Shown in pieces: positions 20,239 through 51,079 of a DNA stretch of 64,000 nt. The stretch covers positions 28,294 through 92,293 of the forward strand of contig JAJEKV010000779.1 of assembly GCA_021234155.1 (NCBI GenBank). Direction: 5' to 3'. The stretch comes from Isoetes taiwanensis (taxonomy: Eukaryota; Streptophyta; Lycopodiopsida; Isoetales; Isoetaceae). The position numbers were made by a program, and so were the translations under genes. Position 1 is the stretch's first letter. Every line of letters starts with the position of its first letter. The notes under the pieces were generated by a model that was given only the letters and a program-made list of their open reading frames with translations, made no database searches and was not told where the DNA came from.

Positions 20239-20920
20239 TGATATAGAGCGAGCATGGGGGAGTGGTCCACTTGAATGGGTTTGAGAAATATGGCTAATTT
20301 AATGTAAATATTCTTTCTATGATTCTCAATAATACATGAAGAAGGGCATAGAAGAGTATATTATCAACCATGGAAAAAAGGCCTATGCAAGAAGGTTTAT
20401 GGGATTACACGAAAGGGCAATCATTTTGCAAAGGTTATTTATTAAAGGTTACTAGGAAGGGGTCGTGTCAACCAACAAAAAGATAAAAGGCAAGGATACG
20501 AACCATATTGCAAAGGGGACCCATTTGAACACGTGCGTATTAAAAAAGATCTCTTTCCTATCATATAAAAGGAAGATATTATTACCATTGCATCAAAGGC
20601 TATTGCCTTTTAGAAAAAACAACGAAGGCATAAGGGGGGCGGATTTGGAGCAGGGGAGGCACAGGAAACCACATAGCGACCAAGGCGATTGCTTGGAGTA
20701 GAGAGTTCCGTTTGGCGAGCCTAGAACCTTGGTGAGAGTCGGCGGTTTCTACTTGGAGTAGGATGAAGTTCAATAAGCCTTAACCTAAGATAAGCCATAT
20801 TCCATTCAAGGGGTGGACGGTTGGGTGGAAAATCATTGCTCTTATCAATCGTGAAATAAGACTTTGTTTTGAGTTATTGAATCATCCTCTTGTAAGATTG
20901 TGAGTCTTTAACTTATATCA
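20239..20920 (+). repeat. 5' LTR of the gag-only element
   Basis: Near-identical to 22,637-23,326. Contains a CACGTG (20,530-20,535) followed about 30 bp later by ATATAAAA (20,563-20,570), a plausible core promoter. Most differences from the other LTR fall at CAG/CTG sites. Confidence 0.85.
20563..20570 (+). promoter_or_regulatory. TATA box in LTR
   Basis: ATATAAAA here and TATATAAA at 22,961 in the other LTR. A CACGTG box sits about 30 bp upstream in both. Confidence 0.45.
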
Positions 20921-20922
20921 AT

Positions 20923-20935
20923 TGGTATCGAGCTC
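20923..20935 (+). other. Primer-binding site of the gag-only element
   Basis: TGGTATCGAGCTC matches TGGTATCAGAGC of initiator-Met tRNA if CAG is read as CG, the same replacement that separates repeat copies elsewhere in this window. Confidence 0.6.
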
Positions 20936-20952
20936 ATCGATTCGGACCGGCA

Positions 20953-21740
20953 ATGGCCCAAAGCGGATTTCAACATCTCGATGTAGTCGATATCGGCAAG
21001 CTTTTAGCTAATGCCGGCTACATTGCATCCCGGATAGCCTTGCCTCACGCTGCTAATCGGCGAGGGAATATGAAATTGGATTGGTTGGCTATTCCATGCG
21101 GATTTCTTACGAGATATTCCCAAGCTGACCACCTTTGCAGAATGATCCTCCACCAGAAATCCTCCACCACCGTAGCCTCTTTAATTCCAAAGAAGATTAG
21201 AAAATGGTTGGAGAAAGTAGATATACCTACTTTTAAAGGGAAGAAGATCACGAGGCCAATTAAAGTAGTTAGTTTCATAAGCGATTGGGAAAAATTCTTT
21301 GATCGAGTGCAAGCAACCCGATGTGGAAAAATTACAAGCCATGGATAGCTATTTGAAAGACCAAGCCCAAGCCCGGTGGCAAGGTCGGCGAGAGTGTAAT
21401 CTAAGATAGACACATGGGGAAAATTCAAGAAAGCATTTGAATCGCAATATCTTCCTTCTAATTATCAAAGTGAGCTAAGAAGACTATGGGATCAAGCGAA
21501 GGAGCAACCAAGACAAGGAAACTATCGGTCCTACACCTCAAAGTTTACCCATTTGGCCGCACTAATAAGGAACCTAGATGGGGAAGAACTCCTACGAAAA
21601 ATATGTTAGTGGGTGTAAAGATGATATATATGCGAGAATTGGAGATCCTAGATCCTAAAGATTTAGATGGGGCTATAAAGATGGCATCTGCGATTGGAAA
21701 GGAAGATGGACCCCAAAATCTTGAAAATTAGATATTTGGG
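20953..21740 (+). pseudogene. Gypsy-type gag (Retrotrans_gag) of the gag-only element
   Basis: The N-terminal frame opens at an ATG (20,953) and runs about 130 codons, including Lys-Trp-Leu-Glu-Lys...Phe-Lys-Gly-Lys and Trp-Glu-Lys-Phe-Phe-Asp. After frame changes near 21,345 and 21,405 the core is readable: Leu-Lys-Asp-Gln-Ala-x-Ala-Arg-Trp, Trp-Gly-Lys-Phe-Lys, Ser-Gln-Tyr-Leu-Pro, then Asn-Tyr-x-Ser-Tyr-Thr-x-Lys-Phe. This order is typical of PF03732. Gag would form the particle in which the RNA is packaged. Whether the frame changes are real is uncertain given the error pattern in this window. Confidence 0.7.
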
Positions 21741-21904
21741 ACGAAAGGAACCACTGAGGAAGAGAGTAAAAAAAGAAAGAGAAGAAAAAATGGTAACAAA
21801 AGACTGATATAAGCGGTTCAAAGAAAAGGTACAATGAGAAAACAATGGACCTGAAGAAGGCAAGAAGAAGTTGACACCTCTAACAAAAAGAATGAGCTAA
21901 AAAG

Positions 21905-21960
21905 AGAGGATGCTTTAGATGTGGAGGGAAGCATTTTGTCGGGAGGCTGTCCTTTTGGGG
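21905..21960 (+). pseudogene. Zinc-knuckle relic of the gag-only element
   Basis: Cys-Phe-Arg-Cys-Gly-Gly-Lys-His is readable near 21,912-21,935, one residue short of the CX2CX4HX4C spacing and without the last Cys. A small indel would restore the spacing. Confidence 0.45.
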
Positions 21961-22636
21961 AAGGGGAATTACAAAAGTTGAACCTCTTAAATCGGCATAC
22001 TATTGGATGCATGCGTTAGAGGCACCTAAGCTGTGGAGCCAATAGTTGAGACTTCGAGGCGAGAGACCTCCAATGGAGAGGAGGAAGGCGGGTAAGCTTC
22101 CATGAAGAGGAGCGGTAGAGGCTAGCAGCTAAGGGAGAAGAGATGGCTCCAAATGGGAACTCTGGGATGAATAAGCGGGTGAACTTCTCTTCTTGGAGAT
22201 CCACGGGAAGCTTTTTGTAAGTGTAATTCTTTATTGGGAATAAAGAGTAGGATTTTTAAAGTTGATTTTTCTTTATTTGGAATAAGGAATAGATACTTTT
22301 TATGTGTATACCATGGTAGATTAGTGACCACTGATTGCAACGTAGCCGGCTTTGAACATGGTATATTTGATGTGAATGCCTCTTGGTAGATCGATGTAAT
22401 TGTGTCTGCAGCACAATAGGCACGAACAAGAGAGCATAAGATGTAAAACTTTGAAGACTAGTAATTGTGGTTTGCAACACAATTGGCTTGACAAAGTTAC
22501 ATCCGTACCTTGGAGGTACGAGGGTATCTTGTACTTTTGGAAGTACAAGAATATCCGAAGTAACTATTTCGAGTTGTCGTGAATAAGATATTTCTAGAAT
22601 CTTGTTGATGGTGGTGATCCGCGAAGAAGGATGGAT
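21961..22636 (+). mobile_element. 3' non-coding part of the gag-only element
   Basis: No domain on either strand. It ends with a purine-rich GAAGAAGGATGGAT just before the 3' LTR, a weak polypurine tract. Confidence 0.5.
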
Positions 22637-23326
22637 TGATATAGAGAGCATGGGGGTGGTCCACTTGAATGGGTTTGAGAAATATGGCTAATTTAATGTA
22701 AATATTCTTTCTATGATTCTCAATAATACATGAAGAAGGGGCATAGAAGAGTATATTATCAACCATGGAAAAAAGGCCTATGCAAGAAGGTTTATGGGAT
22801 TACACGAAAGGGCAATCATTTTGCAAAGGTTATTTATTAAAGGTTACTAGGAAGGGGTCGTGTCAACCAACAAAAAGATAAAAAGGCAAGGATACGAACC
22901 ATATTGCAAAGGGGGACCCATTTGAACACGTGCGTATTAAAAAAAGATCTCTTTCCTATCTATATAAAGGAAGATATTATTACCATTGCATCAAAAGGCT
23001 ATTGCCTTTTAGAAAAGGCAACGAAGGCATAAAAGGGGGCGGATTTGGAGCAGGGGAGGCACCGGAAACCACATAGCGACCAAGGCCTGATTGCTTGGAG
23101 TAGAGAGTTCCGTTTGGCGAGCCTAGAACCTTGGTGAGAGTCTGAGCAGTTTCTACTTGGAGTAGGATGAAGTTCAATAAGCCTTAACCTAAGATAAGCC
23201 ATATTCCATTCAAGGGTGGACCCGGTTGGGTGGAAAATCTGTGCTCTTATCAATCTGTGAAATAAGACTTTGTTTTTGAGTTATTGAATCACTACTGTAA
23301 GATTGTGAAGTCTTTAACTTATATCA
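22637..23326 (+). repeat. 3' LTR of the gag-only element
   Basis: Starts TGATATAGAGAGC and ends ATATCA. CACGTG at 22,927-22,932 and TATATAAA at 22,961-22,968. Confidence 0.85.
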
Positions 23327-24132
23327 ATCCCAGTGGTAGAGACATATTGTACATGGTTTCTGTGGTTTTATTTTTGTGTTTGGAAACTTTCCGCTATATT
23401 GTAAAACCGTCTCATAGGCCAGTTGGTCTCCGTGGACGTTAAAATATACTTCCTTCCTTCCTTCATTCCTTTTGCAAATAAAATTTGTGTGGCTTCTTCA
23501 TCCTCCATCACTTTATTTTGCTCTATTTCTGTTTTCAGCATCCTCTCTGCCTCGATTCTTGTCTTTGCCAAAGTTCTAATAAACATGGCTATATTCCCAA
23601 GAATAGTTACTGCTTTTGAAATAGCCAAGACCTGCTGTTGTTGAGTATATAAAACTCCTGCCCCCTCCAAGTCAGCAATGAAATTATCAAATGTTTGAAA
23701 AAAATCATTGACATTAGTCTCCTCAATTCATTTTCCAACACATCTATTTGTGAGGATGTCTTATCCTCATAATTTATGAGCATATAGCTCCACATTTCAC
23801 TAGGATGCATTCCTCTAATTTTTAAAACAATGCTCGAGTTTACCTTACTCATGATTATACCATGTGCTTCCCTTATTTTTGCAATATCCACTCCTCCCCC
23901 TCTTTCCACAGAGGTTGCTACAGCATCTGCTCCATTCACAAAGCTCGAACTCCTTCAAAAGCAACTTACTGAAGTTCTGCTTCTAACTCCCTTATCCCCT
24001 GGTTCAACAATCTCCCAAAGGCCTTCTACTTGCAACACTTGTTTGATTTTCTCCTTCCAAACTTGGAACCCTGATTCTCCCTTAAACACATCAATTGCAC
24101 TTAATAAACCTGCACCAAATCTGCTTGCCATC
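23327..24132 (-). pseudogene. Copia gag, 5' part, unit 1
   Basis: Starts at the ATG at 24,130-24,132, 26 bases inside the LTR boundary, and shows the copia gag N-terminus with Phe-Lys-Gly-Glu and Trp-Lys-Glu-Lys. A 19 bp deletion near 23,715 relative to unit 2 (28,660-28,690 region) breaks the frame. A second break lies near 23,955. The nested element then truncates it at 23,327. Confidence 0.85.
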
Positions 24133-24158: not shown

Positions 24159-24960
24159 TGTTAGAAAATTATCAGAGAATAAACCAATATGACTTAGCAC
24201 AACTCAATCACCATGCATTAGATATAAATAATCTATGAACAAGATCATCTAATTTCATAAGAACTTTTAAACAACCTCAATCATGTATATAAGTCTCAAG
24301 CAAACTTCATTCTCCTATTATTCTAGCAAATATACTTCACCATTGAATTAAATCATAGGAACACAGTTCAAATGGTATTAAAATAATCACTGTAGCACCT
24401 TTTTCCATTTGGATCAACAAATGTATACCTTGTCTTCTGCTCTCACACCCACGATATTCACTCTAAATCAATTATTTACACTGCTAGTTCATTTATCCCA
24501 GCAGTCCCATGGTCAAGCCAAACCGCTTATTTTGCTTGTTATCATATCCTTGGATCCTCATGCCATTCCGGCATTGGACCCGACTTGTTTGAACAACTGG
24601 ATCCAAGTATCTCGATAGCATATTTGAAATATTCTTGAATCTCTGTTCAATGGTTTAACCATATAATAATGTTCACTAAATAGGTCATGTCTTTGACCTA
24701 ACATTTGAACCATTAATCTTTTCTTCAACCTTTGAATTTGACTGCAATGGGTTTACCTAATTGCTTATTTGCTTTTCAATCTCGTTCTTGTGCATAAGCA
24801 TTCACTGTGGTTAATTTCCAAACACAGAACTCAACAGCACATAATTTAAACTCAGCATTTTTCAACTGTCTCAGCACCTTCAACTGTCTTAATTCATTTT
24901 CTCTATTCAAGATCTTCTTCAAATATTATAATATGAAATATTATGACATGAACTCCAACA
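24159..24960 (-). repeat. Copia 5' LTR, unit 1
   Basis: TGTTGGAGTTC...TTCTAACA on the minus strand, with a TATATA-containing stretch near 24,281-24,290. The same LTR recurs at 29,137 and 34,119. Confidence 0.9.
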
Positions 24961-24965
24961 AGTTC
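24961..24965. repeat. Target-site duplication AGTTC (right)
   Basis: Pairs with 15,692-15,696. The same AGTTC and flank also follow the unit 2 LTR at 29,943-29,947, showing that the LTR there was copied together with its flank. Confidence 0.75.
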
Positions 24966-26465
24966 TTTGCCTTTGATGCCGGCTACTCCAGTGGTTCTTA
25001 AAGAAAGGGATTTTCCTTGCAAGGCGCTGGGAGTAAGGGAGCGGAAGTTCATGGGAATTTGCATCCACCAGGTACAGATTCCAGTCCTAATGTAGTTCCT
25101 CAGCTTCAGGCAAATAATAGTGCTTGGAAATCATCTGATTCGGTTACAAAAGTTTCATATTAAAGATTTAGCGATTGGCTTTGTAAGGATATATCTAGTG
25201 CATCTAGAAAGGCAAGGGTAGCAACTACTTTACAGGTATTGTCTGAAGGAAGTAAGGATGAGTTGTCGGCAATCTTGGACACATTAAAAGCCGGACAGAT
25301 TCAACTTCAACAACAGTTGCCTCTAGATGACATATTTTACCAGTCTCACTGTCAAAATGTGGTTCAGACTTCTGGTATTCCTGTGGTTGAGGTGGACCAT
25401 CAAGCCCATATTAAGTGTGCTGAGAACTTATCTTCTTGTGCAGTTCTTGGGTATTTTACTGGTGGCTAATTAGATTTTTCACGGTTCCGTGTTTGGTTAT
25501 CTCGGCTTCTGAGACGCCTTCAACTTCCTCCTTTCCAGTCCATCAAGTTGTTGGCAAAAAACTTTGTTCTCATTATGTTTGAAAGTAGTGATGCAGTGGA
25601 CTCTTTGGTATCACGAGGGATGGATCCACTTGGTTGGGAGTATATAATGTACCAGTATTACTCTCCTGGCTTTACACTAGATATAGTTTGTGCATTAAAG
25701 ATGCCTTGCTGGTTCTCGTTACCTAATCTTCCTCCTGATCTAATGGCTCATCAATTTCTAGTTGAAATTGCAATGGGACTTGGGGTTCATATCTCACACT
25801 CCATCATGAATGGTCCAAAGATTTGTGTTTCTATGCCTGTGGATTCGCCTTTACCAGATTGTGTAGTTGTCAAAGGAGGGCCTTGGTATAAGAAGTTGGA
25901 TCTTAAGCTTCTGAATGGTCCAGAATTAGCCCGTTTGTTTCCTGATAAGGAGGCTTTTGCTAGCTTTCGTCGAGGTACTCGTGCATCTCAGGCATCAGTT
26001 CAATATTCTTCTCAGGTTCAAGCTCCTATTGTTATTTCTTCATCTATTCATGATCAACCTTTGTCAGTTGCCTTACATTCCTCGGCTATGGAAGATGCTC
26101 TACACACAGTTCCAATAGTGTCGTCCTTAGCACCGTCAGCTGCAGCTATACCCCGTTATTGCTTCCGCTTCTCATGCTTCTAAGTTTGTTATGGCTGATG
26201 GTCCTAATCTTCAGTGCGCTAAAGAGTCATGGCAACAGACTAATTGGAAGAAGGCAGCGAGGAAGAAGTCGGTTATCTCACCTCACGAGGCTATCCTGCC
26301 TCGTTCTATTCAGTGGCATGATAACTTGATGTCTGTCGATGAGCATCTTGATGTTGCAGAACATATTGATTGTGATTCTAGGTTTTGAGTCCCATGTCAC
26401 AGGTCCCTTGTATGTATCTTGATATTCCTTGATAATAGATTGTCATCCTTCAAAAAAAAAAAAAA
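24966..26465 (+). pseudogene. DUF4283-like ORF, copy 1, ending in a short poly(A)
   Basis: One frame is readable from about 25,050 to 26,183 with in-frame TAA codons at 25,161 and 25,467. It then shifts near 26,155 and continues to a stop at 26,386. The middle (about 25,560-25,900) has the DUF4283 pattern: a Phe-Glu strand, Gly-x-Asp-Pro, Tyr-x-Pro-Gly-Phe, Trp-Phe-Ser-Leu-Pro-Asn-Leu-Pro, an Ile-Ala-x-Gly-Leu-Gly segment, Val-Asp-Ser-Pro-Leu-Pro and Gly-Pro-Trp-Tyr. DUF4283 proteins are plant nucleic-acid-binding-like proteins, often the first ORF of retroelements. An Arg/Lys-rich stretch follows. A14 at 26,452-26,465 ends the unit. The LTR and PBS at 15,000-15,362 lie upstream in the pre-insertion sequence. 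The 5' end of the coding region is uncertain. Confidence 0.6.
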
Positions 26466-27540
26466 GACACGAGCTTCATAGCCATAGCTAACCAGAGAGG
26501 AATATACCCCTATAGTTGGGCCGACCCACCAACCTAGCGGAGCTGCCGATCTAGGTGGGACCATGGGAGAAGGTCGACCTAGGTGGGAATTTTTTGCCAG
26601 CCTATTGACCTATGTTGTCAAAATTCAAGCTTCTTGTTTTTTGCAGATAATACATAACCAACGTGCAATACATCTCTGTTCCTAAATAAATAGCAAATTC
26701 TAGAATTGGGCTTGCATGAAACTGACAAAGCTCAGATAGATAGTTCTTTCATCTTTTTCTAAAATGGTTTAGAGTGGGTAATTGCACATTTGCAAGTTAC
26801 CCCACCCTAAAAATGAAAAACACAAGGAATCCAGTTATATCACCTGGACCCCAAAAATAAAGTTTCTACGGAGTCAGCTTGTGTGCCTATTGAGAGCTTA
26901 TCACGGGGATTAAAATACATTCCCGTTTCGTGTTTTTGAGCAAAAACTGTAGTGATAAGACCTTGGCAACGGGCTTGGACAAAATCTAAGGCTGCAAAAA
27001 ATGCTATAAAAAAAACCCATGATGCAAGGAGAAACAGAAGTTATGCATCCCAGCAAGCCTGTACATCACCAATATTAGAACATAATGATAAGAAAACAGC
27101 AACCTCGAAAGGCGGGGGTTGTTCAGGCATGCCACGCCACAAAATCTCGAAAAGCGAGAGGCTGGTCACGTACGCCACATGATAAAATAAAATTTACATG
27201 AATATACAAAAATTAAGGGAGGAAGGCTGAGAATCATGGGTACTGTTGAGAGATGCGGAAGTGCCGATGAGAAGCCGATGAACCCTCCTGCAAGAGATGG
27301 CGATCTCCCTAATGAACCAGAGGCCCAGAAAATGCATGCAATGCATACGTGCTCGCCCATTCTAGAATCCCGATCCGATGACTCGGATCGATGGCATATA
27401 GATAAGATTACACCTCAAACAATTTCAAAACAATCAATTTATGCTATTACACTTTAAATAACCAAAATAGATTGTGTTTTGAGGAAATAAACAAAGTTGT
27501 ACATAACATTACAAAATTGGAACACGTTCTGTATTATTGA
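26466..27540 (+). repeat. Repeat X, unit 1
   Basis: Near-identical to 31,457-32,520 and diverged from 13,180-14,350. It contains short purine-rich and CACG-rich segments and a perfect hairpin CGATCCGA..TCGGATCG near 27,369-27,389, after which similarity to the CACTA copy stops. The last 150 bases (about 27,390-27,540) are AT-rich, with no counterpart in the CACTA copy. No protein was recognised. Confidence 0.55.
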
Positions 27541-27543
27541 GAG

Positions 27544-28178
27544 TTATTCACATGTGCAGCTAGCTTGAAGATGGAGCTTTCTACTTGGTTCCTGTGCAGC
27601 AAATGTCTCAAAATAATGGGCTTTACCAGATAATACATTTATACAAGAATACACTATTCCCACATCTTCAATTCTTTGCAAGTCACCATTCTCTACTTGT
27701 ATATGTCCACCTTGGCTTCCCCTTTTTTCTTTTAGGATCTTTGAGTTGCATGCAATGGATTTTTCTGCTCCACTGTCTAAAATCATAAAGTCATTGTCAA
27801 CAAATTTATTATTAGCAGTAATAAAAGCTTTATGCATTCTTACCTTATCTTCTTCTATTTCAGTAACTTCCTCAAGCACGATTACTTCTGCAATATTTGC
27901 TTCAGCATTTGAGTTACTTATGAATCTTCCCCTACCTCTTCCCCTGGCTGCTGAATATCCCCTTGCTCCCTTTTCTTTTCCTTTGGTAAATACCTCCACA
28001 ATTATAACAATTGATTTCTTTTGTCATAGAGGGGCAGTCTATTTTCAGACGACCATATTGATTGCAGTTGAAGCATGGAACCAGCTTTCCCTTTTTCTTT
28101 TCTTCTCTGCCTTTCCCTTTTTCTTTTCTTCTCCGAGATAGCAATTCACCAACTGCTGGCTTTGCCAATGGTGGCACG
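27544..28178 (-). pseudogene. Copia zinc knuckle and protease, unit 2
   Basis: The protease frame (27,544-27,999) includes an Arg/Gly-rich lead, an acidic segment and Leu-Asp-Ser-Gly-Ala-Glu-Lys-Ser. It is open where unit 1 is broken. After the Gly-Asp-Leu-Gln position it diverges from the complete copia and runs into sequence without copia character, so the element is truncated before integrase. The zinc knuckle lies in another frame at 27,932-28,177 and again lacks its His. Confidence 0.75.
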
Positions 28179-28332
28179 TCTTGCGTCCTACATTCTGCAA
28201 GTCTCCACCGTCAGGGAGTCCCTCACAGCACAGGGAATTTGAGCGCCCAAATAGGGCCTCTCAACGCCTACTACAAGGGTTTTTCATCCCAGTGGTAGAG
28301 ACATATTGTACATGGTTTCTGTGGTTTTATTT

Positions 28333-29109
28333 TTATGTTTGGAAACTTTCTGCTATATTGTAAAACCGTCTCATAGGCCAGTTGGTCTCCGTGGACGTTA
28401 AAATATACTTCTTTCCTTCCTTCATTCCTTTTGCAAATAAAATTTGTGTGGCTTCTTCATCCTCCATCACTTTATTTTGCTCTATTTCTGTTTTCAGCAT
28501 TCTCTCTGCCTCGATTCTTGTCTTTGCCAAAGTTCTAATAAACATGGCTATATTCCCAAGAATAGTTACTGCTTTTGAAATAGCCAAGACCTGCTGTTGT
28601 TGAGTATATAAAACTCCTGCCCCCTCCAAGTCAGCAATGAAATTATCAAATGTTTGAAAAAAATCATTGACATTGTCCTTGTCATGGAATTTTAGTCTCC
28701 TCAATTCATTTTCCAACACATCTATTTGTGAGGATGTCTTATCCTCATAATTTATGAGCATATAGCTCCACATTTCACTAGGATGCATTCCTCTAATTTT
28801 TAAAACAATGCTCGAGTTTACCTTACTCATGATTATACCATGTGCTTCCCTTATTTTTGCAATATCCACTCCTCCCCCTCTTTCCACAGAGGTTGCTTCA
28901 GCATCTGCTCCATTCACAAAGCTCGAACTCCCTTCAGTAGCAACTTCTGAAGTTCTGCTTCTAACTCCCTTATCCCCTGGTTCAGCAATCTCCCAAAGGC
29001 CTTCTACTTGCAACACTTGTTTGATTTTCTCCTTCCAAACTTGGAACCCTGATTCTCCCTTAAACACATCAATTGCACTTAATAAACCTGCACCAAATCT
29101 GCTTGCCAT
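28333..29109 (-). CDS. Copia gag ORF, unit 2 (intact over about 258 codons)
   Basis: This is the best-preserved gag of the three. Its ATG at 29,107-29,109 lies 28 bases inside the LTR. It has the copia gag Phe-Lys-Gly-Glu, Trp-Lys-Glu-Lys-Ile motifs, and a central helical region with Leu-Arg-Arg-Leu-Lys-Phe-His and Asn-Asp-Phe-Phe-Gln-Thr-Phe-Asp-Asn. It ends before the zinc knuckle because of a frame change near 28,330. It packages retrotransposon RNA. Codon-level conservation against units 1 and 3 suggests that this copy approximates the parental sequence. Confidence 0.8.
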   Translation of the reverse strand: MASRFGAGLLSAIDVFKGESGFQVWKEKIKQVLQVEGLWEIAEPGDKGVRSRTSEVATEGSSSFVNGADAEATSVERGGGVDIAKIREAHGIIMSKVNSSIVLKIRGMHPSEMWSYMLINYEDKTSSQIDVLENELRRLKFHDKDNVNDFFQTFDNFIADLEGAGVLYTQQQQVLAISKAVTILGNIAMFIRTLAKTRIEAERMLKTEIEQNKVMEDEEATQILFAKGMKEGKKYILTSTETNWPMRRFYNIAESFQT

Positions 29110-29136
29110 CTTATCTCAACCTTGCTCTGATCCCAA

Positions 29137-29942
29137 TGTTAGAAAATTATCAGAGAATAAACCAATATGACTTAGCACAACTCAATCACCATGCATTAGA
29201 TATAAATAATCTATGAACAAGATCATCTAATTTCATAAGAACTTTTAAACAACCTCAATCATGTATATAAGTCTCAAGCAAACTTCATTCTCCTATTATT
29301 CTAGCAAATATACTTCACCATTGAATTAAATCATAGGAACACTGTTCAAATGGTATTAAAATAATCATTGTAGCATCGTGCATTTTTCCATTTGGATCAG
29401 CAAATGTATACCTTGTCTTCTGCTCTCACACCCACGATATTCACTCTAAATCAATTATTTACACTGCTAGTTCATTTATCCCAGCAGTCCCACGGTCAAG
29501 CCAGACTGCTTGCTTGTTACCATATCCTTCGGATCCTCATGCCATTCCAGCATTGGACCGAGCTTGTTTGAACCGAAACTGGATCCAAGTATCTCGATAG
29601 CATATTTGAAATATTCTTGAATCTCTGTTCAATGGTTTAACCATATAATAATGTTCACTAAATAGGTCATGTCTTTGATTTAACATTTGAACCATTAATC
29701 TTTTCTTCAACCTTTGAATTTGACTGCAATGGGTTTACCTAATTGCTTATTTGCTTTTCAATCTCGTTCTTGTGCATAAGCATTCACCGTGGTTAATTTC
29801 CAAACACAGAACTCAACAGCACATAATTTAAACTCAGCATTTTTCAACTGTCTCAGCACCTTCAACTGTCTTAATTCATTTTCTCTATTCAAGATCTTCT
29901 TCAAATATTATAATATGAAATATTATGACATGAACTCCAACA
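29137..29942 (-). repeat. Copia LTR, unit 2
   Basis: Same LTR and same right flank (AGTTCTTTGCC) as 24,159-24,965, offset by 4,978 bases. This is a duplicated block, not a second insertion. Confidence 0.9.
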
Positions 29943-29947
29943 AGTTC

Positions 29948-31456
29948 TTTGCCTTTGATCTTGGGCTACTCCGGTGGTTCTTAAAGAAGGGATTTTTTCC
30001 TTGGCATTTGATGGGAGTAAGGGAGCCCGAGGAAGTTAATGGAATTTGCATCCACGGTCTGATTCGGTCCTATAATGTAGTTCCTCGACCTCGGGCAAAT
30101 AATAGTGCTTGGAAATCATCCATTCGATTTACAAAAGTTTCATATTAAAGATTTAGCGATTGGCTTTGTTGGGATATATCTAGTGCATCTAGAAAGGCAA
30201 GGGTAGCAACTACTTTTACGGTATTGCGAAGGAAGTAAGGATGAGTTATGCGGCAATCTTGGACACATTAAAAAGCCCATTGATTCAACTTCAACAACGA
30301 TTGCCTCTAGATGACATATTTTACCGGTCACTAATCCAAAATGTGGTTCGAGCTCCCAGTATTCTGTGGTTGAGGTGGACCATCAAGCCCATATTAAGTG
30401 TCTTGAGAACTTATCTTCTTGCAGTTCTTGGGTATTTTCTTGGTGGCTAATTAGATTTTTCACGGTTAGGTGTTTGGTTATCTTTTTACACGATGGGGCG
30501 CCTTCAACTTCCTCCTTTCAGATCCATCAAGTTGTTGGCAAAAAAACTTTGTTCTCATTATGTTTTGAAAGTAGTGATGCGGTGGACTCTTTGGTATCAC
30601 GGGGATGGATCCCACTTGGTTGGGAGTATATAATGTGCAGTATTACTCTCGGCTTTACACTAGATATAGTTTGTGCATTAAAGATGCCTTCTTTGGTTCT
30701 CGTTACCTAATCTTCCTCGATCTAATGGCTCATCAATTTCTAGTTGAAATTGCAATGGGACTTAGGGTTCATATCTCACACTCCATCATGAATGGTCCAA
30801 AGATTTGTGTTTCTATGCCTGTGGATTCACCTTTACCAGATTGTGTAGTTGTCAAAGGAGGGCCTTGGTATAAGAAGTTGGATCTTAAGCTTAGAATGGT
30901 CGAGAATTAGCCGTTTGTTTCACGATAAGGAGGCTTTTGCTAGCTTTTCACGAGGTACTTTCGTGCATCTCGTGCATCGGTTCAATATTCTTCTCAGGTT
31001 CAAGCTCCTATTGTTATTTCTTCATCTATTCATGATCAACCTTTGTCAGTTGCCTTACATTCCTCGGCTATGGAAGATGCTCTACACACAGTTCCAATAG
31101 TGTCGTCCTTAGCATTTAGACTATAGTTCTATCACTATACCCGTTATTGCTTAAAGCTTCTCATGCTTCTAAGTTTGTTATGGCTGATGGTCCTAATCTT
31201 GATGCGCTAAAGAGTCATGGCAAATGACTAATTGGAAGAAGGCGTGAGGAAGAAGTCGGTTATCTCACCTCACGAGGCTATCCTGCCTCGTTCTATTGAT
31301 GGCATGATAACTTGATGTACGTAGATGAGCATCTTGATGTTGAGAACATATTGATTGTGATTCTAGGTTTTGAGTCCCATGTCACCCGGTCCCTTGTATG
31401 TATCTTGATATTCCTTGATAATAGGATTGTCATCCTTAAAAAAAAAAAAAAAAAAA
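29948..31456 (+). pseudogene. DUF4283-like ORF, copy 2, ending in poly(A)
   Basis: Collinear with 24,966-26,465 but frame-broken many more times. The differences cluster at CAG and CTG positions of copy 1, for example TTACAGGTATT to TTACGGTATT near 30,217 and CAACAGTTG to CAACGATTG near 30,295. Domain content as copy 1. A19 at 31,438-31,456. Confidence 0.6.
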
Positions 31457-33260: not shown

Positions 33261-33329
33261 TTTTTCATCGATTAATTTAGAGACATATTGTACATGGTTT
33301 TACGTGGTTTTATTTTTTATGTTTGGAAA

Positions 33330-40300: not shown

Positions 40301-43300
40301 CGGCGTCAACACCCCCTCTCGTCAAGACGAGCCAAGGTCCTAGTCGAATCGACAAGGATAGAGCCTACGAAAGCGTAAACCCTATGAGTTGCGGGGTTCT
40401 AGCGGGGTTTTGCGTTTTTGGGTGCGAGTTTTGGTCTTTTGCTCTTGGGACTTGGCGATAAGATCGATTGAAGCGAAGCAAGAGGCGGCGGAATGGAGTT
40501 TGGATCTGTACTCCTCCGTTGTGGCGGTTAGAAGTAAAAGGCGGCTTTTGCGGTAGCAAGACATTCATAAATTTGTAATTAATGCATAATGCGGAATTAA
40601 ATTCTGATTTTTTTGTCGTGAGGCTTCCTAAGTCATCGCCAACATACAGGCCGGTTTTCAAAATTTCTGGACAAGGTTTAGATCAAAGTGTTTGCATTAG
40701 AGCGGTCGGGCGGCTTTGTTGTTGGGCAGTAGCGGCAGCACACTTGCCCTTAAAGTCAAACAAGGCCAGGACCTTGCAAGGCCGTCTCATTAGAGGGGGA
40801 GAGTCAGAACCCCAAGAGGCGAGCCCCAAAAATTTCGAGGTAGCCTTTCTGGCGGCGCTCCCCAGGGGGCGATGCGCTAAAGACCACACTCGGGATCTCG
40901 GTTCCCCTATCCGGCCGTTGAATCCCGCCGTTCAAGGGCCACGGCACCGATAAGGTCCAAAAAATCCAACATCCGTCAGGAGAACTTATCAAACCATGGC
41001 GTCTGCGGTCGGCCAGTGTAGAAACCAAAGTGTTTTGTCGTTTGGACATTGCGGCGGAGGCTCGGGAATGGCGATTCGACTTCGCCACATCGTCGTCAGG
41101 GAGGCGAAATTACCCTAGAGACCAAGTTGCCGCGGTCAGTTTTGCAAAAAAAGAAACACTTACGCCCTACGTTTGCGATTACCGGCGACCACCTCCTAGG
41201 CCAATTGACTACGAGTGTGTTGGACATGAGATAGTTTGGCGCTTCCTCGAGAAGGGGTGGTCTTACGGCCCGCGAAACTTGGTCCCAGGGCAATGTCGGC
41301 GTTAGGAGTCCATTGGCGAGCGAATCACGATTAGGAGAGGGGAAGTTGCCGTCGTCGCCCGGGGCCGCCGGAGAGGACTTTTGGGGCAAAAGGCTGCTTC
41401 GGATGGTTTTAGGGTCCATGCTCTGGCGTCAACACCCCCTCACGTCAAGACGCGGCGCAAGGTCCTAGTCGAATCGACAAGGATAGAGCCTCGAAAGCGT
41501 AAACCCTATGAGTTGCGAGGGTTCTAGCGGGGTTTGCGTTTTGGGTCTTAAGTTTTGGTCTTTTGCTCTTGGGACTTGGCCGATAAGATGCGATTGAAGC
41601 AGCGAAGCAAGGGGCCCGGCGGAATGGAGTTTGGATCGTACTCCTCCCGTTGTGGCGGTTAAGTAAAAGGCGACTTTTGCGGTAGCAAGACATTCATAAA
41701 TTTGTAATTAATGCATAGTGCGGAATTAAATTATGATTTTTTGTCGTGAGGCTTCCTAAGTCATCGCCAACATGAGGCCAGTTTTCAAAATTTCGGACAA
41801 GGTTTAGATCAAAGTGTTTGCATTAGAGCGGTCAGGGGACTGTTGTTGGGCAGCCGGTGCAGCACACTTGCCCAAGTCAAACAAGGCGGGACCTTGCAAG
41901 GCCGTCTCATTAGAGGGGGAGAGTCCAGGAACCCCAAGGCGAGCCCCAAAAATTTCGAGGTAGCCTTTCTGGCGGCGCTCCCAGGGGGGGCCGTGCGCTA
42001 AAGACCACACTCGGGATCTCGGTTCCCCTATCCGGCCGTTGAATCGCCGTTCAAGGGCCACGGCTCGATAAGGTCCAAAAAATCCAACATCCGTCAGGAG
42101 AACTTATCAAAACCATGGCGTTCTGCGGTCGGCCAGGTGTAGAAACCAAAGTGTTTTGTCGTTCGGACATTGCGGAGGCTCGGGAATGGCGATTGACTTC
42201 GCCACATCGTCAGGGAGGCGAAATTACCCTAGAGACCAAGTTGCCGCGGTCGGTTTTGCAAAGAAAGAAACACTTAAGCCCTACGTTGCGGTATTCGAAA
42301 TGACCACCTCCTAGGCCAATTGACTCACGAGTGTGTTGGACATGAGATAGTTTGGCGCTTCCTCGAGAAGGGGTGGTCTTACGGCCCGCGAAACTTGGTC
42401 CCGGGGGCAATGTCGGCGTTCGAGTCCATTGGCGAGCGAATCACGATTCGGAGAGGAAGTTGCCCGTCCGTCGCCCGGGGCCGCGGGGAGAGGACTTTTG
42501 GGGCAAGCTGCTTCGGATGGTTTTAGGGTCCATGCTGCGGCGTCAACACCCCCTCTCGTCAAGACGGCGCCAAGGTCCTAGTCGAATCGACAAGGATAGA
42601 GCCTCCGAAGCGTAAACCCCTATGAGTTGCCGGGTTCTAGCGGGGTTTTGCGTTTTGGGTGCGAGTTTTGGTCTTTTGCTCTTGGGACTTGGCGATAAGA
42701 TGCGATTGAAGCGAAGCAAAGGAAGCCCAGCGGAATGGAGTTTGGATCTGTACTCCTCCGTTGTGGCGGTTAAGTAAAAGGCGACTTTTGCGGTAGCAAG
42801 ACATTCATAAATTTGTAATTAATGCATAGTGGAATTAAATTCTGATTTTTTGTCGTGAGGCTTCCTAAGTCATCGCCAACATACTGAGGCCGATTTTCAA
42901 AATTTCGGACAAGGTTTAGATCAAAGTGTTTGCATTAGAGCGGTCGGGCAGCTTTGTTGTTGGGCAGCGGCTGGCACACTTGCCCAAGTCAAACAAGGCA
43001 GGACCTTGCAAGGCCGTCTCATTAGAGGGAGAGTCAGGAACCCCAAGAGGCGAGCCCCAAAAAATTTCGAGGTAGCCTTTCTGGCGGCTCCCAGGGGGCC
43101 CGTGCGCTAAAGACCACACTCCGGATCTCGGTTCCCCTATCCGGCCAGTTGAATCCGCCGTTCAAGGGCCACGGCTCGATAAGGTCAAAAAAAATCCAAC
43201 ATCCGTCAGGAGAACTTATCAAACCCATGGCGTTCTGCGGTCGACCGTGTAGAAACCAAAGTGTTTTGTCGTTCCGGACATTGCGGAGGCTCGGAATGGC

Positions 43301-43547
43301 GATTCGACTTCGCCACATCGTCAGGGAGGCGAAATTACCCTAGAGACCAAGTTGCGCGGTCGGTTTTGCAAAAGAAAGAAACACTTCGCCCTACGTTTGC
43401 GGTATTCGAAATGACCACCTCTAGGCCAATTGACTACGAGTGTGTTGGACATGAGATAGTTTGGCGCTTCCTCGAGAAGGGGTGGTCTTACGGCCCGCGA
43501 AACTTGGTCCCCGGGGGCAATGTCGGCGTTCGAGTCCATTGGGCGAG

Positions 43548-43561
43548 CGAATCGCGATTCG
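43548..43561. repeat. Satellite internal palindrome, example
   Basis: CGAATCGCGATTCG, a perfect 14 bp palindrome in this monomer. Other monomers show variants with an extra C or A at the centre. A second palindrome, CCTTGCAAGG, is conserved in nearly every monomer (for example 43,002-43,011). Confidence 0.5.
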
Positions 43562-46500
43562 GAGAGGGAAGTTGCCCGTCGTCGCCCGGGGCCCGGGGAG
43601 AGGACTTTTGGGGCAAAAGCTGCTTCGGATGGTTTTTAGGGTCCGTGCTGGCGTCAACACCCCCCCTCTACGTCAAGACGCGGCGCAAGGTCCTAGTCGA
43701 ATCGACAAGGATAGAGCCTCACGAAGCGTAAACCCTATGAGTTGCGAGGTTCTAGCGGGGTTTTGCGTTTTGGGTGCGAGTTTTGGTCTTTTGCTCTTGG
43801 GACTTGGCGATAAGATCTGATTGAAAGCGAAGCAAGAGGCCCGGCGGAATGGAGTTTGGATCTGTACTCCTCCCGTTGTGGCGGTTAAGTAAAGGGCGAC
43901 TTTTGCGGTAGCAAGACATTCATAAATTTGTAATTAATGCATAGTGCGGAATTAAATTCTGATTTTTTGTGTCATTGAGCTTCCTAAGTCATCGCCAACA
44001 TCTGAGCCAGTTTTCAAAATTTCGGACAAGGTTTAGATCAAAGTGTTTGCATTAGAGCGGTCAGGGCGGCTTTGTTGTTGGGCGCCGGTGGCACACACTT
44101 GCCCAAGTCAAACAAGGCGAGGACCTTGCAAGGCCGTCTCATTAGGGGGGAGAGTCCAGAACCCCAAGAGGCGAGCCCCAAAAAATTTCGAGGTAGCCTT
44201 TCTGGCGGGCTCCCCGGGGGCGTGCGCTAAAGACCACACTCGGGATCTCGGTTCCCCTATCCGGCCAGTTGAATCCGCCGTTCAAGGGCCACGGCTCGAT
44301 AAGGTCCAAAAAATCCAACATCCGTCAGGAGAACTTATCAAACCCGCGGCGTCTGCGGTCGGCCAGGTGTAGAAACCAAAGTGTTTTGTCGTTCGGACAT
44401 TGCGGAGGCTCGGAATGGCGATTCGACTTCGCCACATCGTCAGGGGAGGCGAAATTACCCTAGAGACCAAGTTGCGCGTCGGTTTTGCAAAGAAAGAAAC
44501 ACTTCGCCCTACGTTGCGGTATTGACTGACCACCTCCTAGGCCAATTGACTACGAGTGTGTTGGACATGAGATAGTTTGGCGCTTCCTCGAGAAGGGGTG
44601 GTCTTACGGCCCGCGAAACTTGGTCCCAGGGGCAATGTCGGCGTTAGGAGTCCATTGGCGAGAGCGAATCGCGATTCGGAGAGGGGAAGTTGCCCGTCCG
44701 TCGCCCGGGGCCGCCGGGAGAGGACTTTTGGGGCAAAGCTGCTTCGGATGGTTTTAGGGTCCGTGCTCGGCGTCAACACCCCCCTCTACGTCAAGAGACG
44801 GCGCCAAGGTCCTAGTCGAATCGACAAGGATAGAGCCTCACGAAAGCGTAAACCCTATGAGTTGCGGGTTCTAGCGGGGTTTTGCGTTTTGGGTCTTAGA
44901 GTTTTGGTCTTTTGCTCTTGGGACTTGGCGATAAGATGCGATTGAAGCGAAGCAAGGGGAGGCCTGGCGGAATGGAGTTTGGATCTGTACTCCTCCCGTT
45001 GTGGCGGTTAAGTAAAAGGCGACTTTTGCGGTAGCAAGACATTCATAAATTTGTAATTAATGCATAGTGCGGAATTAAATTCTGATTTTTTGTCGTGAGG
45101 CTTCCTAAGTCATCGCCAACATATAGGCCCGTTTTTCAAAATTTCGGACAAGGTTTAGATCAAAGTGTTTGCATTAGAGCGGTCAGGGCAGCTTTGTTGT
45201 TGGGCAGCCGGCTGGCACACTTGCCCCAAGTCAAACAAGGCGGGACCTTGCAAGGCCACCTCATTAGGGGAGAGTCCGGAACCCCAAGAGGCGAGCCCCA
45301 AAAAATTTCGAGGTAGCCTTTCTGGCGGCTCTCCCAGGGGGCCGTGCGCTAAAGACCACACTCCGGGATCTCGGTTCCCCTATCGGCCGTTGAATCCGCC
45401 GTTCAAGGGCCTGGCTCGATAAGGTCAAAAAAATCCAACATCCGTCGGGAGAACTTATCAAACCATGGCGCGTCTGCGGTCGGCCAGGTGTAGAAACCAA
45501 AGTGTTTTGTCGTTCGGACATTGCGGAGGCGGAATGGCGATTCGACTTCGCCACATCGTCGGGAGGCGAAATTACCCTAGAGACCAAGTTGCGGTCGGTT
45601 TTGCAAAGAATAAAACACTTCGCCCTACGTTGCGGTATTCGGACGACCACCTCCTAGGCCAATTGACTACGAGTGTGTTGGACATGAGATAGTTTGGCGC
45701 TTCCTCGAGAAGGGGTGGTCTTACGGCCGCGAAACTTGGTCCCGGGGCAATGTCGGCGTTAGAGTCCATTGGCGAGCGAATCGCGATTAGGAGGGGAAGT
45801 TGCCGTCCGTCGCCCGGGGACGCCGGGAGAGGACTTTTGGGGCAAAATTTGCTTCGGGATGGTTTTAGGGTCATGCTGCGGCGTCAACACCCCCCTCTCG
45901 TCAAAGACCGCGCGCAAGGTCCTAGTCGAATCGACAAGGATAGAGCCTCGAAGCGTAAACCCTATGAGTTGCGAGGTTCTAGCGGGGTTTTGCGTTTTTG
46001 GGTGCCGAGTTTTGGTCTTTTGCTCTTGGGACTTGGCCGATAAGATGCGATTGAGAAGCGAAGCAAGAGGCCTGGCGGAATGGAGTTTGGATCTGTACTC
46101 CTCCGTTGTGGCGGTTAGAAGTAAAAGGCGGCTTTTGCGGTAGCAAGACATTCATAAATTTGTAATTAATGCATAATGCGGAATTAAATTCTGATTTTTT
46201 TTGTCGTGAGGCTTCCTAAGTCATCGCCAACATCTGAGGCGAGTTTTCAAAATTTTGGACAAGGTTTAGATCAAAGTGTTTGCATTAGAGCGGTCAGGGC
46301 AGCTTTGTTGTTGGGCAGCCCGGTAGCACACTTGCCCAAGTCAAACAAGGCGGGACCTTGCAAGGCCGTCTCATTAGAGGGAGAGTCCAGAACCCCAAAG
46401 GCGAGCCCCAAAAAATTTCGAGGTAGCCTTTCTGGCGGCGCTCCCAGGGGGCCGTGCGCTAAAGACCACACTCCGGATCTCGGTTCCCCTATCCGGCCCG

Positions 46501-49500
46501 TTGAATCCGCCGTTCAAGGGCCACGGCTCGATAAGGTCAAAAATCCAACATCCGTCAGGAGAACTTATCAAACCGCTGGCGTCTGCGGTCGACCGTGTAG
46601 AAACCAAAGTGTTTTGTCGTTCGGACATTGCGGAGGCTCGGAATGGCGATTCGACTTCGCCACATCGTCAGGGAGGCGAAATTACCCTAGAGACCAAGTT
46701 GCGGTCGGTTTTGCAAAAGAAAGAAACACTTCGCCCTACGTTGCGGTATTCGACTGACCACCTCCTAGGCCAATTGACTACGAGTGTGTTGGACATGAGA
46801 TAGTTTGGCGCTTCCTCGAGAAGGGGTGGTCTTACGGCCCGAAACTTGGTCCCGGGGGGCAATGTCGGCGTTAGAGTCCATTGGCGAGCGAATCCGCGAT
46901 TCGGAGAGGGAAGTTGCCCGTCCGTCGCCCGGGGCCGCCGGGAGAGGACTTTTGGGGCAAGCGCTTCGGATGGTTTTAGGGTCCGTGCTCTGGCGTCAAC
47001 ACCCCCTCACGTCAAGACCGCGGCGCAAGGTCCTAGTCGAATCGACAAGGATAGAGCCCTCGAAGCGTAAACCCTATGAGTTGCGAGGGTTCTAGCGGGG
47101 TTTGCGTTTTGGGTCTTAGAGTTTTGGTCTTTTGCTCTTGGGACTTGGCGATAAGATGCGATTGAAGAAGCGAAGCAAGAGGCCCGGCGGAATGGAGTTT
47201 GGATCTGTACTCCTCCCGTTGTGGCGGTTAAGTAAAAGGCGACTTTTGCGGTAGCAAGACATTCATAAATTTGTAATTAATGCATAGTACGGAATTAAAT
47301 TCTGATTTTTTGTCGGTGAGGCTTCCTAAGTCATCGCCAACATCTGAGGCCAGTTTTCAAAATTTCTGGACAAGGTTTAGATCAAAGTGTTTGCATTAGA
47401 GCGGTCAAGGGCGGCTTTGTTGTTGGGCAGTAGGGCTAGCACACTTGCCCCAAGTCAAACAAGGCGGGACCTTGCAAGGCCGTCTCATTAGGGGGAGAGT
47501 CCGAACCCCAAGAGGCGAGCCCCAAAAAAATTTCGAGGTAGCCTTTCTGGCGGCGCTCCCCCGGGGGGCGATGCGCTAAAGACCACACTCCGGATCTCGG
47601 TTCCCTATATCCGGCCCGTTGAATCCCGTTCAAGGGCCCTGGCTCGATAAGGTCCAAAAAATCCAACATCCGTCGGGAGAACTTATCAAACCATGGCGTT
47701 CTGCGGTCGGCCAGGTGTAGAAACCAAAGTGTTTTGTCGTTCGGACATTGCGGGAGGCTCGGAATGGCGATCGACTTTCGCCACATCGTCAGGGAGGCGA
47801 AATTACCCTAGAGACCAAGTTGCCGCGGTCGGTTTTGCAAAAGAAAGAAACACTTACGCCCTCGTTGCGGTATTCGGCCGTGACCACCTCCTAGGCCAAT
47901 TGACTACGAGTGTGTTGGACATGAGATAGTTTGGCTTCCTCGAGAAGGGGTGGTCTTCGGCCCCACGAAACTTGGTCCCGAGGGGCAATGTCGGCGTTCG
48001 AGTCCATTGGCGAGCGAATCACGATTCGGAGAGGGAAGTTGCCGTCCGTCGCGGGGGCCAGCCGGGGAGAGGACTTTTGGGGCAAGCTGCTTCGGATGGT
48101 TTTAGGGTCCATGCTCGGCGTCAACACCCCCCCTCGTCAAGACCGCGGCGCAAGGTCCTAGTCGAATCGACAAGGATAGAGCCTCGAAAGCGTAAACCCT
48201 ATGAGTTGCGAGGGTTCTAGCGGGGTTTTGCGTTTTTGGGTCTTGAGTTTTGGTCTTTTGCTCTTGGGACTTGGCGATAAGATCTGATTGAAGCGAAGCA
48301 AGAGGCCAGCGGAATGGAGTTTGGATCGTACTCCTCCGTTGTGGCGGTTTAAGTAAAAGGCGACTTTGCGGTAGCAAGACATTCATAAATTTGTAATTAA
48401 TGCATAGTACGGAATTAAATTATGATTTTTTGTGTCGAGGCTTCCTAAGTCATCGCCAACATCTGAGGCGAGTTTTCAAAATTTCGGACAAGGTTTAGAT
48501 CAAAGTGTTTGCATTAGAGCGGTCGGGCGACTGTTGTTGGGCAGCGGCTGGCACACTTGCCCAAGTCAAACAAGGCCAGGACCTTGCAAGGCCGTCTCAT
48601 TAGAGGGAGAGTCAGGAACCCCAAAGGCGAGCCCAAAAAAATTTCGAGGTAGCCTTTCTGGCGGCGCTCCCGGGGGGCCGTGCGCTAAAGACCACACTCC
48701 GGGATCTCGGTTCCCCTATCCGGCCAGTTGAATCCGCCGTTCAAGGGCCCTGGCTCGATAAGGGTCAAAAAATCCAACATCCGTCAGGAGAACTTATCAA
48801 ACCCTTGGCGTTCTGCGATCGGCCAGGTGTAGAAACCAAAGTGTTTTGTCGTTCGGACATTGCGGAGCTCGGAATGGCGATTCGACTTTCGCCACATCGT
48901 CGGGAGAGGCGAAATTACCCTAGAGACCAAGTTGCGGTCGGTTTTGCAAAAGAAAGAAACACTTATGCCCTACGTTTGCGGTATTCCGGACCGGCCACCT
49001 CCTAGGCCAATTGACTACGAGTGTGTTGGACATGAGATAGTTTAGCTTCCTCGAGAAGGGGGTGGTCTTACGGCCCTGAAACTTGGTCCCCAGGGGCAAT
49101 GTCGGCGTTAAGAGTCCATTGGCGAGCGAATCGCGATTAGGAGGAGGGAAGTTGCCCGTCGTCGCCCGGGCCCCGGGAGAGGACTTTTGGGGCAAAATTT
49201 GCTTCAGGATGGTTTTAGGGTCAGTGCTCGGCGTCAACACCCCCCCCTCTACGTCAAGACACAGCGCCAAGGTCCTAGTCGAATCGACAAGGATAGAGCC
49301 TCGAAGCGTAAACCCATGAGTTGCGAGGTTCTAGCGGGGTTTTGCGTTTTGGGTCTTGGGAGTTTTGGTCTTTTGCTCTTGGGACTTGGCGATAAGATCA
49401 CGATTGAGAGCGAAGCAAAGGGCCGGCGGAATGGAGTTTGGATCTGTACTCCTCCCGTTGTGGCGGTTAGAAGTAAAAAGGCGGCTTTTGCGGTAGCAAG

Positions 49501-49914
49501 ACATTCATAAATTTGTAATTAATGCATAGTGCGTAATTAAATTCTGATTTTTTGTGTGAGGCTTCTAAGTCATCGCCAACATACATGCCAGTTTTCAAAA
49601 TTTACGGACAAGGTTTAGATCAAAGTGTTTGCATTAGAGCGGTCAGGGCAGCTTTGTTGTTGGGCAGCCGGTGGCACACTTGCCCAAGTCAAACAAGGCC
49701 AGGACCTTGCAAGGCCGTCTCATTAGAGGGAGAGTCCAGAACCCCAGGCGAGCCCAAAAAATTTCAGTAGCCTTTCTGGCGGCGCTCCCGGGGGGCGTGC
49801 GCTAAAGACCACACTCCGGATCTTGGGTTCCCCTATCCGACCAGTTGAATCCTTCGTTCAAGGGCCTGGCACCGATAAGGTCAAAAAATCCAACATCCGT
49901 ATAGGGAGAACTTA

Positions 49915-50040
49915 TCAAATCATCTAATGGCGTCTTTAATCAACCCAATCATGTAGAAACCAAAGTGTTTTGTTATTCTGGCAAATACACTTCACCGGAT
50001 TAAATCATAGGAACCTTTGTTGAAGGAATGGCGGATGTAG
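49915..50040 (+). other. Chimeric patch: satellite sequence blended with copia LTR sequence
   Basis: Inside the fourteenth monomer, words from the LTR (CATCTAATGG-like, CAATCATGTA, TTATTCTGGCAAATACACTTC, TAAATCATAGGAAC, TGTTGAA) alternate with satellite words (GGCGTCT, GTAGAAACCAAAGTGTTTTG). The LTR words appear in the same order as in 34,205-34,335. This blending, with partial bases of each, is what consensus polishing gives when boundary reads are aligned to the wrong unit. Confidence 0.65.
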
Positions 50041-51079
50041 ACAAAGTGTTTTGTCGTTGGACATCGTTCGGGAATGGCGGAGGCCAAAATTACCCTAAAG
50101 ACCAAGTTGCCGCGGTCGGTTTTGCAAAAGAAAGAAACACTTCGCCCTACGTTTGCGGTATTCGGCCGGCCACCTCCTAGGCCAATTGACTACGAGTGTG
50201 TTGGACATGAGATAGTTTGGCGCTTCCTCGAGAAGGGGGTGGTCTTCTGGCCACGAAACTTGGTCCCGAGGACAATGTCGACGTTAGGAGTCCATTGGCG
50301 AGGCGAATCACGATTAGGAGGGGAAGTTGCCCGTCCGTCGCCCGGGGGCACCCGGGGAGAGGACTTTTGGGGCAAAGCACTTAGGATGGTTTTAGGTCCG
50401 TGCTCTGGCGTCAACACCCCCCTCTACGTCAAGACGGCGGCCAAGGTCCTAGTCGAATCGACAAGGATAGAGCCTCCGAAGCGTAAACCCTATGAGTTGC
50501 GGGGTTCTAGCGGGGTTTGCATTTTGGGGTGCCAAATTTTGGTCTTTTGCACTTGGGACTTGGCGATAAGATGCGATTGAGAAGCGAAGCAGAGAGGCGC
50601 GGAATGGAGTTTGGATCTGTACTCCTCCGTTGTGGCGGTTAAGTAAAGGCGGCTTTTGCGGTAGCAAGACATTCATAAATTCGTAATTAATGCATAGTGC
50701 GAATTAAATTCTGATTTTTGTCGTGAGGCTTCCTAAGTCATCGCCAACATCTGAGGCCAGTTTTCAAAATTTCGAACAAGGTTTAGATCAAAGTGTTTGC
50801 ATTAGAGCGGTCAGGGCTTTGTTGTTGGGCAGCAGTGGCACACTTTGCCCAAGTCAAACAAGGCCGGGACCTTGCAAGGCCGCCTCATTAGAGGAGAGTC
50901 GAACGGGGAGGCGAGCCCCAAAAAAGTTCCCAAGGTAGCCTTTCTGGCGGGCTCCCAGGGAGCCATGCGCTAAAGACCACACTCCGGATCTCGGTTCCCC
51001 TATCCGACCATTGAATCCCCGTTCAAGGGCCCTCGTTCGATAAGGGCCAAAAATCAACATCCGTCCAGGAGAACTTATC

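Follow-up and report, generated by a model that had tools for sequence, protein, structure and literature searches.

Nanopore consensus errors that gather at methylated motifs are a known class of error in bacteria. In Klebsiella, Dcm motifs (CCAGG/CCTGG) held about 70% of the nanopore consensus errors left by the base callers then current (Wick 2019, PMC6591954), and in Listeria the motifs GCWGC and GCTGG cause modification-mediated errors (Modpolish, PMC10687267). Here we describe a related pattern in plant DNA, in a stretch of 64,000 nucleotides from the quillwort Isoetes taiwanensis (hereafter the window; C529:28294-92293 in our numbering, on contig JAJEKV010000779.1 of assembly GCA_021234155.1). 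It carries a tandem retroelement in two units, A and B, followed by a satellite array, whose copies differ from one another most strongly at CHG sites (CAG, CTG and CCG, with the complement CGG).

The Enterobacteriaceae errors are likewise concentrated in a 5-methylcytosine motif that includes CAG or CTG, are attributed to training data without the motif, and are not removed by taking a consensus (PMC6591954). Those of Listeria also fall in motifs containing CAG or CTG, outlast polishing and are corrected by homologous sequence (PMC10687267). They differ from the present case in being confined to bacterial motifs, of five bases with about 0.4% error for Dcm, and in being counted as mismatches for Listeria, whereas here a three-base plant context is affected, differences reach about 10% in blocks, and the outcome shifts to CG. 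For plants, work on reduced nanopore accuracy and on species-specific base callers points to modification or methylation of native DNA as a probable reason for the poorer accuracy (PMC9749173, PMC7501810). The excerpted text of these two papers does not mention errors specific to CHG, nor outcome strings, blocks or an effect on CpG content; "chg" has no match in that of PMC9749173 and one in that of PMC7501810, on methylation detection. Among the matches listed in our search, judged by title and the start of the abstract, there was no description of CHG-to-CG rewriting in a plant assembly, which is weak evidence of novelty.

We read the differences as consensus errors, namely nanopore miscalls of methylated CHG sites, often read as CG, in places where polishing failed. 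We give this reading a probability of about 0.86.

Results

The two retroelement units (A, 24,159-29,136; B, 29,137-34,118) differ by 164 events, 10.2% overall. CAG or CTG is present in A at 84 of them, as against a mean of 24.6 and a maximum of 38 in 1000 random placements; another 15 hold CCG or CGG only, and homopolymer-length changes make up 24. CAG/CTG was lost in B in 79 events, gained in 7 and equal in 5. Counted by site, 99 of the 138 CAG/CTG of A were altered in B (0.72), as were 26 of the 38 CCG/CGG (0.68), compared with 782 of 4682 (0.17) for all trinucleotides outside CHG and CpG. The latter include the reordered letters of CAG (GAC, AGC, GCA and their complements), altered in 120 of 405 cases (0.30). 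Changes are thus far from evenly spread over contexts. Unit A was not picked for CHG richness.

Eight of the strings from which a sequence-only reading of the window had drawn the same pattern were found within one base of where it had put them: CAACAGTTG at 25,311 and CAACGATTG at 30,295, TTACAGGTATT at 25,230 and TTACGGTATT at 30,216, TGTGCAGCTAG at 27,553 and TGTCGGCTAG at 32,539, GTTTCTGTGG at 28,315 (and also at 23,356) and GTTTTACGTGG at 33,297. Its claim that near-identical pairs differ around CHG sites holds for A and B. It fails for 23,327-24,158 and 28,286-29,136, a pair of two clean stretches among the seven pairs compared, where no CHG enrichment was seen (CAG/CTG altered 0/21, and 3/24 in the other direction). 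"Clean" is used throughout as a relative term for the copies compared.

The deviation between A and B was 0.42 per base inside CHG, 0.20 one base away, then 0.12 and 0.11, falling to 0.06 at 4-5 bases and 0.045 at 6-12 bases; at 6 bases or more from CHG the difference was 3.9-4.5%. From A 24970 onward, it was 0.458 within CHG versus 0.047 at 13 bp or more. A nanopore senses only a few bases at once, and the footprint is limited to about that width, some 4-6 bases. Because the differences fall over so few bases, the decay fits the sensing length of a nanopore better than it fits a mutational process. Among 18 clean copies of the element compared with the copy at locus L011, deviation fell merely from 0.08 to 0.03-0.06 with distance.

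The first 811 bases or so of the A/B pair escaped most of this (mean deviation 0.028, versus 0.116 in the rest; 0.115 within CHG, over 61 bases). Among positions no closer than 13 bases to a CHG, differences number 65 in 1428 for the damaged part of B and 5 in 419 for the clean 811 bases (p = 7e-4). The damaged block is therefore worse overall, as expected where correction failed.

That excess far from CHG would also be expected if the base caller or polisher mishandled CAG and CTG in any DNA, methylated or not, the clean stretches being simply better polished; the clean state of genes (below) would follow as well, if unique DNA was polished. Against this, CAG, CTG, CCG and CGG have little in common except being CHG, and the same letters in other orders are hit less. 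The outcome, moreover, tends to CG, which such base callers know as a methylated context. The bacterial precedents tie such errors to methylated motifs. We hold a context-specific error of this kind, free of methylation, to be improbable, though it fares best among the alternatives.

To see which of the two units departs, we took 20 further copies of part of the element (1.35 kb) from other contigs, ten per orientation. They were fetched from best matches, a choice that favours clean copies. Their identity was 0.895-0.938 to A and 0.82-0.85 to B, and they contained 36-55 CAG/CTG per copy, compared with 47 in A and 13 in B. Their CHG index (the CAG+CTG count divided by the count of the same letters reordered, as above) was ordinary in all of these best matches, at 0.96-1.46, and at least 1.07 in 19. 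By this alignment, B is the outlier and the 20 sister copies side with A; the copies are other loci, not accurate reads of B. One of them (L030; ratio 0.96, 13 CTG) appeared partly damaged and was excluded from the clean set, leaving 19. When the count is restricted to sites shared by A and 90% or more of these 19, B altered 12 of 16 CAG/CTG; for CAA/TTG it altered 3 of 43, and for AAA/TTT 0 of 36.

The loss of CHG was traded for CpG. In the 79 CHG-loss events, the CG count rose from 14 in A to 53 in B, while in the events without CHG it went from 10 to 9. Nine copies of a dispersed repeat at 56.0-58.5 kb grade from 93 CAG/CTG with 26 CpG to 29 CAG/CTG with 62 CpG (Spearman rho -0.99, n=9), and the same relation was found for the repeat at 20.9-22.65 kb (rho -0.85, n=7, p = 0.016). 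CAG/CTG were altered at 38 of 45 sites in 20,900-22,650 compared with the copy L039, 20 of the 38 with CG, and at 76 of 93 in 56,000-58,500 compared with the copy L033. The references for these two repeats, as for the satellite below, were picked as CHG-rich, which inflates the apparent loss. Damaged copies have a small set of outcomes in common. Such a shift from CHG to CG would be expected if the base caller had learned methylated cytosine chiefly in front of G. With B departing from A and from 20 other copies, a decay over about 4-6 bases and few outcomes, sequencing errors tied to CHG, as had been proposed, are the most likely source.

The satellite behaves alike. Its alignment has 51 rows, of which 15 are the window units and 36 come from arrays on eight further contigs. 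Compared with the CHG-rich unit L008_03, from another contig, the window units altered 423 of 538 CAG/CTG (0.79), 274 of the 423 with CG, and 0.64 of CCG/CGG, versus 0.03-0.51 for the other 30 trinucleotide classes. Of the satellite strings quoted in the sequence-only reading, the exact GGCCAGTTTT was found four times and GGCCGGTTTT once. The arrays on the eight other contigs are CHG-poor too (ratio 0.44-0.79). Three units, L008_03, L006_05 and L010_01, on different contigs and in both orientations, keep all or nearly all CHG sites intact; these units were also used to define the satellite CHG sites.

Rather than errors, B and the satellite units could represent real subfamilies, or products of gene conversion, from a CG-rich lineage. 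The same replacement does recur, CGG standing for CAG in 29-39 of about 45-51 satellite units at five columns, and one polarity is found in all satellite loci. A lineage split, however, does not predict that differences reach baseline within about 6 bases of CHG, and it was judged unlikely from this decay. In several spots, damaged satellite units are scrambled, each in its own way, between flanks that do not vary; clean units neighbour damaged ones within a single array (L006, L008, L010); and the copies of the 56.0-58.5 kb repeat form a gradation. A distinct lineage thus has a slim chance, smaller than that of the methylation-free error.

The spectrum of change in the clean copies is of another kind. 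Their C-to-T rate was 0.085 at CG, 0.052 at CHG and 0.030 at CHH (pairwise values, not independent), and this CHG-biased decay is taken as an evolutionary sign of CHG methylation in this element family. Deamination of 5-methylcytosine, including decay resembling repeat-induced point mutation, would affect the CHG context, but it was rejected as the source of the changes in B and has next to no chance of explaining them: single C-to-T or G-to-A changes are 115 of 183 CAG/CTG changes in the 19 clean copies versus 9 of 99 in B (Fisher p = 8e-20), 67 of the 99 exceed a single-base substitution, and B alone departs from 20 copies. The sequence-only reading had rejected deamination on similar grounds, as it would give C to T and not indels. 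The changes in B are often multi-base. A CG-containing outcome was found at 36 of the 99 changed sites in B versus 11 of the 183 in clean copies (Fisher p = 3e-10); both p values are rough, the copies being related.

A matching methyltransferase is predicted to be encoded in the assembly. A chromomethylase-like gene lies on contig C1026, with an allele on C61. For one of its exons on C1026, PDB 4fsx (entered as DNA (cytosine-5)-methyltransferase 1) was hit with E = 6e-16 but no Pfam family was; a frame next to it hits PF00145 (E = 4e-9). We take 4fsx to be maize ZMET2, a CMT3 relative, and further methyltransferase frames in the assembly to be MET1-like and DRM-like. The target context of such an enzyme is where the errors concentrate, as the comparison of CAG/CTG with permuted letters in units A and B has shown.

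Damaged and clean sequence alternate in blocks along the window. One-kilobase ratios are 0.75-1.24 for starts at 4-9.5 kb, 0.70-1.55 at 15-19.5 kb and 0.82-1.41 at 23-29 kb; they are low, at 0.24-0.60, for starts at 20-22.5 kb (20,001-22,501, the element at 20,239-23,328), 0.17-0.71 at 30-52 kb and 0.35-0.58 at 56-58 kb. A ratio below 0.7, an arbitrary mark that natural composition can cross too, was found in 39 of 64 kilobases of the window and in 18 of 52 random kilobases from the assembly (1.66 Gb, 1110 contigs). Three of the 13 readable random pieces were low as a whole, two of the 15 drawn (L063, L065) consisting of N and being excluded. These random-sample figures do not depend on the choice of a reference. 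Around actin-family and methyltransferase genes, only 1 of 40 kilobases was low, or 1 of 34 without the two pairs of overlapping loci that the 40 windows contain.

Allelic contig pairs gave a further comparison. Two clean pairs, C1026/C61 (0.989 identical) and C1056/C277 (0.982), showed no CHG enrichment, with CAG/CTG change of 0.01 and 0.05 or less. A third, C925/C406 (0.825 identical), is CHG-poor on both sides, with CAG/CTG altered at 0.51-0.66 and CCG/CGG at 0.67-0.76; it is not used as main evidence because many other contexts are also high. For the one window stretch tried as a direct control, 6,000-8,400, no allele was found on another contig. The small contigs C61, C277 and C406 match parts of the large C1026, C1056 and C925 in reverse orientation, and these pairs are probably uncollapsed haplotypes, to judge from the matches.

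Discussion

The following sequence of events would account for the pattern. Native plant DNA carrying 5-methylcytosine at CAG, CTG and CCG would have been sequenced on a nanopore, and its signal decoded by a base caller whose knowledge of the methylated base was mostly confined to CpG. A methylated CAG or CTG would then be called as a CG-containing string (CAG as CGG, CGA or CG; CTG as CG, ACG, CCG or TCG), or its neighbours would be scrambled within the few bases sensed by the pore. The consensus would retain the error because most reads agree on the wrong call. Later correction with accurate reads may have repaired genes and many dispersed copies but not satellites, tandem units that are nearly identical, or further repeats, so that damaged and clean sequence would now stand in sharply bounded blocks.

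The error map looks like methylation multiplied by polishing failure. Methylation itself is suggested here by the context, by the CHG-biased C-to-T decay in sister copies and by the methyltransferase genes. The sequence-only reading had gone further, in taking the error map by itself as a report of methylation. Its positive half holds, in that errors point to methylation. The other half does not: clean sequence says nothing on methylation and does not exclude it, the 20 sister copies have ordinary CAG/CTG content, and the damaged part of B differs more even far from CHG.

Several observations weigh against our reading. Of the 164 A/B events, 58 (35%) contain no CHG at all, so that the earlier wording, by which copies differ "almost only" at CHG sites, gives way to a strong enrichment. 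CpG outside CHG is also raised in B (48 of 118 altered, 0.41), as is isolated CpG (0.12 versus 0.063 for other C/G; 75 bases), an effect not expected of a base caller that knows CpG methylation. GAC/GTC was altered in B at 4 of 13 of the sites agreed by A and at least 90% of the 19 copies, and was raised too in the 1.35-kb comparison (0.22; 50 bases, B versus L011). The two CHG-richest copies of the 56.0-58.5 kb repeat, L032 and L033, differ most at CHG (0.099 versus about 0.02), with CG in 8 of 14 changes. A comparison of homopolymers, meant to separate unpolished from methylated sequence, had too few runs. In the satellite a few CHG sites escape damage in almost every unit, such as the CTG at column 856, intact in 48 of 51, so that damage would depend on local sequence as well. 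Lastly, outcomes in B are not strand-symmetric: CAG became CGG or CGA in 22 of 71 cases and CTG became CCG or TCG in 1 of 67 (p = 1e-6). In the satellite, the polarity is identical in all nine loci (the window and L003-L010) whatever the orientation of the contig.

The CHG sites that survive in the satellite, damaged units included, are either unmethylated or in contexts that the base caller handles well.

For the polarity in B, it could be that a local majority of one read strand wins the vote; strand-specific nanopore errors are mentioned in PMC8961926. Either polarity is seen among other damaged dispersed copies, and heterogeneity among copies was significant at 20.9-22.65k (permutation p of 0.001) but not at 56-58.5k (0.08). 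It may be, as a suggestion only, that any one damaged stretch records a single strand of the reads. Such a strand vote does not explain the uniform polarity of the satellite.

If the artefact reading is true, many apparent mutations in these repeats are not real. About a third of random kilobases in the assembly (the 18 of 52 above) may then be altered at CHG, and apparent frameshifts, long-terminal-repeat ages, satellite divergence, CpG content and CHG depletion taken from such stretches would be wrong. The CHG index flags suspect stretches without reads. More tentatively, and on balance we doubt it, the unpolished blocks of public nanopore plant assemblies might constitute an unintended, strand-phased record of CHG methylation, in which a CpG-trained caller turned methylated CHG into pseudo-CpG and the winning strand set the polarity. 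Methylation, false CpG enrichment, frameshifts and retroelement ages would then be recognisable from the consensus alone.

Other features of the window

Coordinates are collected in Table 1.

Table 1. Features of the 64,000-nucleotide window, with the observation on which each rests.
Feature	Positions	Strand	Observation
CHG-poor block, probably damaged (assessed by ratio alone)	1..4000	.	Ratio 0.47-0.51, 2-kb windows
CHG-intact block, Copia-type polymerase and integrase frames	15001..19600	-	1-kb ratios 0.70-1.55; RVT_2 E 6e-81, rve E 4.7e-11
Element with terminal repeats 20239-20922 / 22637-23328 (gag-only element of the sequence-only reading)	20239..23328	+	Self-match 95.3%; interior damaged
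Unit A, tandem retroelement, CHG-intact copy	24159..29136	+	CAG+CTG ratio 1.02 vs letter-permuted control
DUF4283 protein fragment in unit A	25470-26183		Pfam DUF4283, E 6.9e-8
Unit B, first part (~811 bases of A), nearly undamaged	29137..29960	+	Mean deviation from A 0.028
Unit B, damaged part	29970..34118	+	CAG/CTG/CCG replaced, often by CG-containing strings
Tandem satellite, 15 units of ~1.12 kb, damaged throughout	34351..51081	+	Unit table; break near 49,924-50,078
Damaged dispersed repeat with cleaner copies elsewhere	56000..58500	+	29 CAG/CTG vs 92-93 in L032/L033

In the element with terminal repeats, no Pfam match was found for the frame 20896-21348. The ends of the stretch 15697-20217 match the pieces 24159-24958 and 27656-28291 of the A/B units, and its middle holds minus-strand Copia polymerase frames. 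The shared ends and the polymerase-bearing middle therefore suggest an autonomous relative, of which the A/B units would be a derivative. In this Copia block (16001-20000) CpG is very scarce: the observed/expected ratios of its 2-kb pieces are 0.24 and 0.12, and no other piece of that size in the window is as low.

The assembly as a whole contains plastid-type rbcL, Copia elements and plant-type DNA methyltransferases. Two rbcL copies, on C1052 (5415903-5416829, L001) and C840 (20428-21354, L002), were considered as a control and dropped, being just 89.7% identical in DNA (147 mismatches and 2 gap openings over 1445 bases). Both are open frames, and the copy on C1052 may come from the plastid of a different lineage, or may have been transferred long ago and kept its frame.

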